A stretch of DNA of 64,000 nucleotides from Deferribacterales bacterium Deferri_01 (GTDB lineage Bacteria; Chrysiogenota; Deferribacteres; Deferribacterales; Geovibrionaceae): the NCBI GenBank assembly GCA_001603805.1, contig LUZY01000013.1:598723-662722 (forward strand). Direction: 5' to 3'. The first letter of the stretch is position 1. Each line of letters starts with the position of its first letter. The notes under the pieces were generated by a model. That model did no database searches, was not told the DNA's origin, and worked only from the letters and a program-made list of their open reading frames with translations. Both the position numbers and the translations under genes were made by a program. This document shows, one piece after another, positions 9,557 to 12,552 of the stretch.

Positions 9557-9850
9557 CTATTTTACAAGATAAGTCTCCAGATTCGGATTCTTCTTCTGAA
9601 GGCTTGTCATATATTCTTTTATATCAGTTATTATTGTTATATCCTTTCCGCTCATCAGGCAGAAAACAGTGCTGTTCACAGCTATTCCTGCTTTAACTAG
9701 TTCCGCCGCAGACATCATAATGCTTATGGTGCGTTTGCCGGACTGGATCATCACTGATGCGTTGATAAGCCCTGAATCTACCTCAAGAACTGTCCCTTTT
9801 ATGAGCTGACCGTTGAAATCTCTGTTTGTCAATCTTGGAGCCGCTATCAT
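9557..9850 (-). CDS. TOBE-domain molybdenum-pterin-binding-like protein
   Basis: A 97-residue cytoplasmic protein that contains a single TOBE/Mop-type domain at about residues 15-75, with a GTVLEVDSGLINA start and a SGKDITI end. Mop (molbindin) proteins store molybdate or tungstate in oligomeric rings; a regulatory or transfer role is also possible. The ATG overlaps the nifB stop codon by four bases, so it is translationally coupled to nifB. That pairing suggests molybdenum handling for FeMo-cofactor assembly, which is an inference from position. The last 25 residues are polar and are not part of the domain. A terminator follows. Confidence 0.75.
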   Translation of the reverse strand: MIAAPRLTNRDFNGQLIKGTVLEVDSGLINASVMIQSGKRTISIMMSAAELVKAGIAVNSTVFCLMSGKDITIITDIKEYMTSLQKKNPNLETYLVK

Positions 9851-11187
9851 TTGTTCACCTCAGCTTTTTCGACAGCCAGAATATCGGCCGCCGCTTTCCA
9901 TGCCTCTTTCAGACATGTATTATACGCTGTACCCACCACAGGGGTCATGCCTAAGTTTTTCATCTCATCCGCTGCGCTGTTGCCTATTCTGCGGTAAACC
10001 ACCGCATGACACCCACCAAGCCCGGCTATCATAGCATGGATTCTGGCATCAAGCCTGTTTTCCGGAGAAGCAGCAATCTCCGCAGCCAAATCAAAGCTGC
10101 GTTCGTGTGCGTAGCCGTTTTCGGAGAAGCTGAATATCTCAAACCTGCCTGCTTTACCGAAGTTTGAATCAAGATATCTTCCGGTGGATGAGGCAACAGC
10201 AACTCTCACAGTGCGCCCATTGAGGAAGTCTTTCATTTCACCGATTCCTTTTCTCACATCCGCTTCGGCGAGTTCGTTCAGTTTGCCGAAAACAGCGCCG
10301 CTGTGCATCCTTGAGTGTTCATCAAGGGAGAGATCACCCACCTTTGAAACACTGCCCAGTTTACCCACAGCATCCGCCCTGCACTGACGGCAGTGGCTCA
10401 TTATATTTTCTGAACTGCCCATTGCATCCTCACAGTCATTTCTGACCTTGGCGAGCATTGCGCAGTCCGGTTCGGGAACTTCCATCTCAGCGAATTTTGT
10501 TCCGTATTCCTTTTTGGACATAAGAGGGATTACATTATGAATGTAAGCACCCAATTCCTTTATTGTTTTAGCCACTTCGGCTATGTGTTCGTCGTTTACT
10601 CCGGGTATGAGAACAGAGTTGATCTTCACTATCACATTCTCTGCCACAAGCATCCGGATGCCGAGAATCTGGTTGCCTATGAGCTTCTTGACAGCCTCTA
10701 TACCCTTTTCTCCGCCCACATTGTCATATATTTTTACTGCAATTTCAGGATCAACCGCATTCATCGTCACCGTGACATGCTCTATGCCAAGCTCAACAAT
10801 TTCATCAACATATTGCGGCAATGCCAGACCATTTGTGCTGAGACAGAGCTTAATTTCGGGATTAAACTCCTTAATAAGTCTGAATGTTCCGAATGTTTCC
10901 TCCGGATTGGCAAGGGCATCACCGGGACCTGCTATTCCCGCTACACTTAAGTTTTCAACAGCATGATAAGCTGAAATTGTTTTTTCAAGCGCCTGTTCAG
11001 GGGTGAGAACATCACTGGTGACTCCGGGGCGAGACTCATTGCTGCAGTCAAACTTACGGTTGCAGTAATTACACTGAATATTACAGGCAGGGGCAACAGG
11101 AAGATGTATGCGAGAATATTTCATGTGCGCGCCGGCACAATAACAGGGGTGTTTCTCTACTTTCTGCTTTATTGTTTCTCTGTCCAT
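9847..11187 (-). CDS. nifB: Nitrogenase cofactor biosynthesis protein NifB
   Basis: Radical SAM enzyme that builds the carbide-containing 8Fe-9S NifB-co, the precursor of all nitrogenase cofactors. The SAM-cluster motif CNIQCNYC gives CxxxCxxC at residues 35-42, preceded by the NifB-specific HPCYC and followed by RKFDCSNESRPGV. AGPGDALANP and CLSTNG segments are further family marks. After about residue 325 comes a NifX/NafY-like domain (VAVASSTGRYLD, later MIAGLGGCHAVVYR), so this is the full-length fused form. The AAGGAG ribosome site lies eight bases before the ATG. A sigma-54 promoter sits upstream, and the gene diverges from nifV. The nitrogenase structural genes are not in the window. 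Confidence 0.95.
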   Translation of the reverse strand: MDRETIKQKVEKHPCYCAGAHMKYSRIHLPVAPACNIQCNYCNRKFDCSNESRPGVTSDVLTPEQALEKTISAYHAVENLSVAGIAGPGDALANPEETFGTFRLIKEFNPEIKLCLSTNGLALPQYVDEIVELGIEHVTVTMNAVDPEIAVKIYDNVGGEKGIEAVKKLIGNQILGIRMLVAENVIVKINSVLIPGVNDEHIAEVAKTIKELGAYIHNVIPLMSKKEYGTKFAEMEVPEPDCAMLAKVRNDCEDAMGSSENIMSHCRQCRADAVGKLGSVSKVGDLSLDEHSRMHSGAVFGKLNELAEADVRKGIGEMKDFLNGRTVRVAVASSTGRYLDSNFGKAGRFEIFSFSENGYAHERSFDLAAEIAASPENRLDARIHAMIAGLGGCHAVVYRRIGNSAADEMKNLGMTPVVGTAYNTCLKEAWKAAADILAVEKAEVNK

Positions 11188-11214
11188 AACGCACTCTCCT
11201 TATGGCTCAACATA

Positions 11215-11230
11215 TGCAAAAAGCCTGCCA
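11215..11230 (-). promoter_or_regulatory. Sigma-54 promoter of nifB
   Basis: On the - strand the element reads TGGCAG-N5-TTGCA, matching the -24/-12 consensus TGGCAC-N5-TTGC at all but one base. A start site about 12 bases downstream would give a leader of roughly 15-20 bases before nifB. Confidence 0.8.
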
Positions 11231-11274
11231 AACAACATATTCTTATTTATCAGTAACTTATAAAATTGTCAGTT

Positions 11275-11290
11275 TGTGCGAAACCTTACA
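11275..11290. promoter_or_regulatory. NifA-type upstream activator site 1
   Basis: TGT-N10-ACA, the NifA binding pattern, centred about 65 bases from the nifB -12 element and about 107 bases from that of nifV. Confidence 0.7.
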
Positions 11291-11302
11291 ATGACTGTTT
11301 TT

Positions 11303-11318
11303 TGTAAGTGTTACGACA
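11303..11318. promoter_or_regulatory. NifA-type upstream activator site 2
   Basis: A second TGT-N10-ACA match, centred 28 bases from the first. It could serve both divergent promoters. Confidence 0.7.
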
Positions 11319-11375
11319 ATGTCAGTAAATCATATAAATAACTTATAAATAAGAATTATAGCAAAACAACCCATA

Positions 11376-11391
11376 TGGCACGGGTTTTGCA
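11376..11391 (+). promoter_or_regulatory. Sigma-54 promoter of nifV
   Basis: TGGCAC-N5-TTGCA, a perfect -24/-12 element. The predicted start site is near 11402, about 30 bases before the nifV ATG. Confidence 0.88.
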
Positions 11392-11433
11392 GGTGGATTA
11401 TTAAATTTAAATCCGTTTTTGGGAGGCATAAAT

Positions 11434-12552
11434 ATGAAGAATTACATAATAGACGATACAACCCTCCGTGACGGAGAGCAGACGCCGGGAGTCAGCTTCT
11501 CACTGAAAGAGAAACTGGAAATAGCCAGAGGGCTGGATAAAATAGGCGTTCAGGAGATCGAGGCGGGAATCCCTGTTATGGGAGAAGAGGAAAGCCGTGT
11601 CTTCTCAAAAATAGTAGACCTTGGGCTCAGTGCAAGAATCATTGCATGGAACAGGGCACTGATCAGCGATGTTCAGGCATCAATTAATGCCGGAGCAGAT
11701 TCTGTGGAAATTTCTCTGCCGCTCTCCGATATACAGATAAAAACCAAGCTTAACAAAGACCGCACATGGGTGAAAGACCAGATAAAGCGGGTGATGGATT
11801 TCTGTGCCTCTAAAAACCTTTATGTTTCCGTCGGCGGTGAAGATGCCTCCAGAGCTGATATAAGCTTTGTCACAGAATACGCAAAGATTGTTAAAGAACA
11901 TGGCGGCGCACGATTTCGCTACTGCGACACAGTGGGCATACTCGACCCCTTTTCCACATATGAAACAGTGAAAAGAATAATAGATGAAACAGGAATAGAT
12001 GTTGAAATCCATGCTCACAATGATTTCGGACTCGCCACAGCTAACTCACTCGCTGCCATAAGAGCTGGAGCAACTCACGTAAACACCACTGTAATAGGCT
12101 TAGGAGAAAGAGCAGGAAATGCGCCTCTGGAAGAAATTGTCATGGCATCCAGACATGTCTACGGACTTGAAGACGGCTTCAACCACTCCTGCATAAAAAG
12201 CCTCAGTGAATACGTATCAAAAGCATCAGGCAGAGCAATAGAACCTTACAGACCTGTCATCGGAGAGCTGATGTTTACCCATGAATCAGGCATCCATACA
12301 GATGGAATACTGAAAAACCCTAATAACTATGAAGCTTTTGACCCGGCAGAACTGGGAATGGAGAGAAAGCTTGTGGTCGGTAAACACTCAGGCAGAGGCA
12401 TTCTGGAATACATTCTTCAGGCGCACGGTCTGGAGTACACTCCGGATACTGTTAAGAACCTGCTTGAAGCGGCTAAAAAAATAAGCGGCAGCAAAAAACG
12501 TTATCTGAATAATAATGAAGTGATAGAGCTTTATAAAAGCATTGCCATTTAA
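11434..12552 (+). CDS. nifV: Homocitrate synthase NifV
   Basis: Condenses acetyl-CoA and 2-oxoglutarate to homocitrate, the organic ligand of the nitrogenase FeMo-cofactor. The DRE-TIM metallolyase motif TTLRDGEQTPGV is at the N terminus, HAHNDFGLATANS near residue 190 provides metal-ligand histidines, and GERAGNAPLEE follows. The length of 372 residues fits NifV and lacks the leucine regulatory domain of isopropylmalate synthase. GGGAGG lies eight bases before the ATG chosen; an ATG five codons upstream is less well placed. A perfect sigma-54 promoter precedes it and a strong terminator follows. A lysine-pathway homocitrate synthase is the alternative, but the promoter and nifB neighbour favour NifV. 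Confidence 0.93.
   Translation: MKNYIIDDTTLRDGEQTPGVSFSLKEKLEIARGLDKIGVQEIEAGIPVMGEEESRVFSKIVDLGLSARIIAWNRALISDVQASINAGADSVEISLPLSDIQIKTKLNKDRTWVKDQIKRVMDFCASKNLYVSVGGEDASRADISFVTEYAKIVKEHGGARFRYCDTVGILDPFSTYETVKRIIDETGIDVEIHAHNDFGLATANSLAAIRAGATHVNTTVIGLGERAGNAPLEEIVMASRHVYGLEDGFNHSCIKSLSEYVSKASGRAIEPYRPVIGELMFTHESGIHTDGILKNPNNYEAFDPAELGMERKLVVGKHSGRGILEYILQAHGLEYTPDTVKNLLEAAKKISGSKKRYLNNNEVIELYKSIAI

Follow-up and report, generated by a model that had tools for sequence, protein, structure and literature searches.

A predicted bidirectional nif control region between nifB and nifV in a Deferribacterales bacterium

The divergent nifB and nifV genes and their promoters

The nifB and nifV genes are located on either side of a 246-base intergenic stretch (11188-11433) of the window, the whole 64,000-nucleotide piece of DNA analyzed from Deferribacterales bacterium Deferri_01. 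The nifB gene (9847..11187, minus strand) encodes a NifB radical SAM protein of 446 aa with a C-terminal NifX/NafY-type domain. In profile searches it scored 438 bits against TIGR01290 (cut-off 343.65) and displayed the domains PF04055 and PF02579. The nifV gene (11434..12552, plus strand) encodes a homocitrate synthase (TIGR02660, 487.5 bits, cut-off 462.9). The TTG at 11419, which is the mechanical ORF start, is not likely to be the start of nifV. A 97-aa ORF (window 9557-9850, minus strand) shares 4 bases with the end of nifB and is probably co-transcribed with it; searches of Pfam and NCBIfam gave no match for this ORF.

In the congener G022, which is assembled as a single contig, nifA was found about 0.77 Mb from nifB/nifV, and in the other family members in which the cluster was read this distance was about 12-25 kb. 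Therefore, nifB/nifV is a detached unit in the genus and needs a control region of its own.

Two sigma-54-type promoters face outward from the intergenic stretch, TGGCAC-N5-TTGCA toward nifV and TGGCAG-N5-TTGCA toward nifB, and both were located exactly where the original prediction had placed them. The nifV promoter (TGGCACGGGTTTTGCA, 11376-11391, plus strand) agreed with the -24/-12 consensus of NifA-dependent sigma-54 nif promoters (GG-N10-GC, TGGCAY-N5-TTGCW) at 11 of 11 positions, and the nifB promoter (TGGCAGGCTTTTTGCA, 11215-11230, minus strand) at 10 of 11. The -12 GC pairs at 11389-11390 (nifV) and 11216-11217 (nifB) gave predicted transcript starts at about 11402 and 11204, respectively, which are the positions originally proposed. 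The predicted leaders are about 32 bases for nifV and 17 bases for nifB, each with a purine-rich ribosome binding site (GGGAGG just 5' of the nifV ATG, AAGGAGAG for nifB). The nifV promoter sequence was unchanged across all three species of the genus. The nifB promoter carried TGGCAG in all three of them and TGGCAY elsewhere in the family.

The pattern TGGCAYN5TTGCW was enriched in the 2.85 Mb genome, with 14 matches versus two for the reversed control, and three of the 14 precede nifV, nifA and fdxN. The nifB site has G where the pattern has Y and is thus outside these 14 matches. Scans of the region for sigma-70-like promoters and for Rfam RNAs found none. One terminator-like match overlaps the nifV promoter and was rejected as unpersuasive.

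Candidate NifA sites, IHF-like sites and their conservation

Between the promoters, two TGT-N10-ACA motifs were confirmed, 28 bp apart from start to start. The centre of candidate NifA upstream activator sequence (UAS) 1 (TGTGCGAAACCTTACA, 11275-11290) is 66 bp away from the -12 of nifB and 107 bp away from that of nifV; for candidate UAS 2 (TGTAAGTGTTACGACA, 11303-11318) these distances are 94 bp and 79 bp, respectively. These enhancer distances all fall in the range of 60-115 bases given previously. The occurrence of two such motifs within the 145 bp between the -24 boxes had p = 0.013 in dinucleotide shuffles. The motif on its own is weak evidence: genome-wide it was neither rare nor enriched (893 versus 998 for the reversed control), although the window contained 26 copies (13.6 expected). 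The case for these sites therefore rests on conservation. In all three congeneric species, TGT-N10-ACA of UAS 2 was retained at the same place despite changes of the inner bases.

The IHF-like sites were absent from the original account and amend the reading of the region. IHF recognizes the consensus WATCARN4TTR, and an IHF site between UAS and promoter is common in NifA-dependent promoters, but not universal. A perfect match (TATCAGTAACTTA, 11248-11260, plus strand) lies between UAS 1 and the nifB promoter (shuffle p = 0.03), and the block TATCARTAACTTATAAAATTGTCA at this site was nearly invariant in the three species. The mirror site between UAS 2 and the nifV promoter (11337-11349, minus strand) has one mismatch here and is perfect in both congeners, e.g., TATCAGATATTTA; the two sites of the congeners gave p = 0.0006-0.0012. 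Relative to the start of the -24 box, IHF-like sites at the nifB, nifV, nifH and fdxN promoters of genera g1-g3 were positioned at -18/-19 in forward or -29/-30 in reverse orientation, and the nifE promoter of g3 displayed one at -26. Both IHF-like sites are carried by the 29-nt arms (83% complementary) of an imperfect inverted repeat at 11239-11356, which is centred at about 11297 and flanks the UAS pair. The entire region thereby approaches a dyad. The candidate UASs, IHF-like sites and predicted promoters thus form a near-symmetrical module.

Divergent nifB/nifV genes with a sigma-54-type site on both sides, defined as GG-N10-G[C/T/A], were found in 17 of 17 loci examined, including the present one; in families f2 and f10 the nifV-side site was weaker. 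Footprint-like conserved blocks in the three congeners coincided with promoter, IHF-like site, UAS, UAS, IHF-like site and promoter. In all seven genomes of genera g1, g2 and g3, the centre of one UAS lay 65-67 bp from the nifB -12, despite spacers that differed widely between these genera. The distance from UAS to the nifV -12 was variable (73-174 bp). By these comparisons, the predicted promoters and sites are placed well beyond chance. The search of named genomes with nifB returned matches in Proteobacteria, Cyanobacteria and Campylobacterota alone, and at 40-44% identity these genomes are too distant for footprinting. In G009 (L127), the nifB-nifV intergenic region was 118 bp and contained a single UAS 29-30 bp from both -12 boxes, which is too near for ordinary looping and does not fit the mechanism proposed below.

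Regulators and other nif promoters in the genome

The original prediction depended on nifA and rpoN, and the genome encodes both. Profile searches detected one NifA above the curated cut-off (TIGR01817, 559.5 bits, cut-off 528.85) and one RpoN (TIGR02395, 396.6 bits). The NifA displayed GAF, Sigma54_activat (AAA+) and Fis-type HTH domains, and its recognition helix, GWVQAKAARLLGMTVRQINYRI, is common to the NifA proteins of relatives. The genome also contained at least 17 other homologues of AAA+ activators. Among three HU/IHF-family genes, two were classified: one exceeded the IHF-beta cut-off and the other was IHF-alpha-like (110.3 versus a cut-off of 111).

The nifA gene is located on a different contig, alongside nifHDKEN-type genes, fdxN, a nifZ-like gene, draT and draG. 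Of these, fdxN is preceded by a UAS, an IHF-like site and a sigma-54 promoter in the same layout as at nifB/nifV. Together with the presence of NifA and RpoN, this module supports the proposal that both proteins may be used as in Proteobacteria. A sigma-54 site was also detected before nifA (G000:C3:150340-150368; L106:10340-10368), as in all genomes of the family in which nifA was read. Its -12 lies about 14 bases 5' of the ATG, so the nifA transcript is predicted to be nearly leaderless. In g1, an imperfect UAS of the TGTAATAAACCTTCCA type is located upstream of nifA, which suggests weak autoactivation.

The original prediction proposed a search for further TGT-N10-ACA sites near nifHDK. The nifH promoter in the genus of the window contains no perfect UAS. 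This nifH promoter (G000:C3:154547; L106:14547) has TTGT at -12 and on paper appears weaker than those of nifB and nifV, even though the structural genes for nitrogenase usually show the highest expression. The draT (PF07357) and draG (TIGR02662) genes, which constitute a reversible ADP-ribosylation switch of nitrogenase reductase, are mutually divergent and located between the nifZ-like gene and nifH (G000:C3:152711-154442). Other family members keep draG, mostly with draT.

Proposed joint control of nifB and nifV and its alternatives

Taken together, the region is very probably a bidirectional nif control module in which NifA, IHF-like bends and sigma-54 co-induce nifB and nifV. Under limitation of fixed nitrogen, NifA would bind the central TGT-N10-ACA sites, and bending of the DNA at the flanking IHF-like sites would bring it to the closed complexes of sigma-54 RNA polymerase. 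ATP hydrolysis by NifA would then open the two complexes at the outward-facing -24/-12 promoters. Two inputs to FeMo-co, NifB-co from NifB and homocitrate from NifV, would thereby be co-induced.

According to the original prediction, a single set of sites can serve both genes. In the relatives G018, G019, G006, G014, G001 and G003, a single UAS lies between two sigma-54-type sites, and there a shared NifA site would be the simplest reading. In the present region, shared use of the sites is only partly supported. Across three genera one UAS is kept 65-67 bp from the nifB -12, and here a second is centred 79 bp from that of nifV, so a separate site for each promoter explains the layout just as well. 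The region may accordingly consist of two one-sided promoters placed back to back, with UAS 1 serving nifB and UAS 2 serving nifV, both through NifA. This sub-variant of the module is quite possible, if short of probable. It agrees with the constant UAS-nifB and variable UAS-nifV spacing, with the second UAS 73-79 bp from the nifV -12 in g1 and g3, and with the position of each IHF-like site between one UAS and one promoter. However, the six single-UAS relatives, which have sigma-54-type sites on both sides, conflict with it.

Both arrangements assume NifA as the activator. Control of the sigma-54 promoters by another enhancer-binding protein, with incidental TGT-N10-ACA motifs, would be in line with the abundance of this motif in the genome, with the many activator paralogues and with genus g4, which keeps both promoters in the absence of UASs. 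We consider it improbable, as the UAS-nifB spacing is fixed in three genera, UASs occur at other nif promoters and the gene content is purely nif. Chance matches in AT-rich intergenic DNA would suit the modest single-genome p-values of the two UASs and the IHF-like site, but are excluded for practical purposes because the elements are better conserved than the spacer in the three congeners and across genera.

Genus g4 belongs to the same family, and the nifB-nifV intergenic regions of its five species (L114-L118, L176-L185) displayed perfect sigma-54 promoters on both the nifB and the nifV side. No UAS was detected between nifB and nifV in four of the five species, and a position-weight scan found none there; G028 has the single UAS match at this position in g4, which is absent from its sister species. 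NifA sites were also lost at fdxN/nifA in g4. Its nifH genes have good UASs and an IHF-like site, and the NifA HTH in the four genomes with a full NifA was the same as in other genera. A changed NifA specificity is therefore excluded as the route of UAS loss. Since the promoters remain perfect, NifA sites are not indispensable to the promoter pair in every lineage.

An AT-rich element adjoining the nifV -24 box was conserved in G025-G028. In local alignments with the fdxN/nifA intergenic regions, G026 (p = 0.002) and G028 (p = 0.012) displayed significant likeness, and G024 and G027 did not. This likeness suggests another regulatory input, as a weak lead. The nifB/nifV pair of g4 could have been freed from direct control through NifA and UASs and taken over by another element, perhaps shared with fdxN/nifA, so that the input to FeMo-co supply would differ from that of the nitrogenase genes. 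We regard this scenario as speculative and rather unlikely.

The components, NifA, RpoN, IHF and the UAS consensus, are already known, as are nif promoters that work in both directions. The nifB/nifV stretch, which is conserved across a little-studied bacterial phylum, is thus genuine but unremarkable. In Klebsiella pneumoniae, nifJ and nifH form a bidirectional pair with sigma-54 promoters that have regulatory features in common and use NifA and IHF (PMC3723869). The present region resembles it as a bidirectional sigma-54 pair with predicted NifA and IHF action; it differs in its genes (nifB/nifV), its phylum, the 145 bp between the -24 boxes and the near-dyad layout. The nif promoters of Alphaproteobacteria that depend on NifA and RpoN, with the promoter consensus TGGCACG-N4-TTGCW and the UAS TGT-N10-ACA (PMC4999443), share both consensus sequences and the activator family with it. 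A 2025 survey of sigma-54 regulons does not count Deferribacteres among those classes in which a nitrogen regulon is enriched, and the passages found on Deferribacteres deal with motility genes (PMC12316311). No description of nif regulation in Deferribacterota was found in the literature searched, which omits most subscription journals.

The predicted region would extend the classic NifA/sigma-54/IHF logic of nif control to Deferribacterota as one conserved bidirectional module. The fixed 66-bp spacing between UAS and the nifB promoter versus the free spacing between UAS and the nifV promoter represents a natural experiment on the constraint of enhancer spacing, and rewiring of the regulon can be tested through the UAS loss in one genus.
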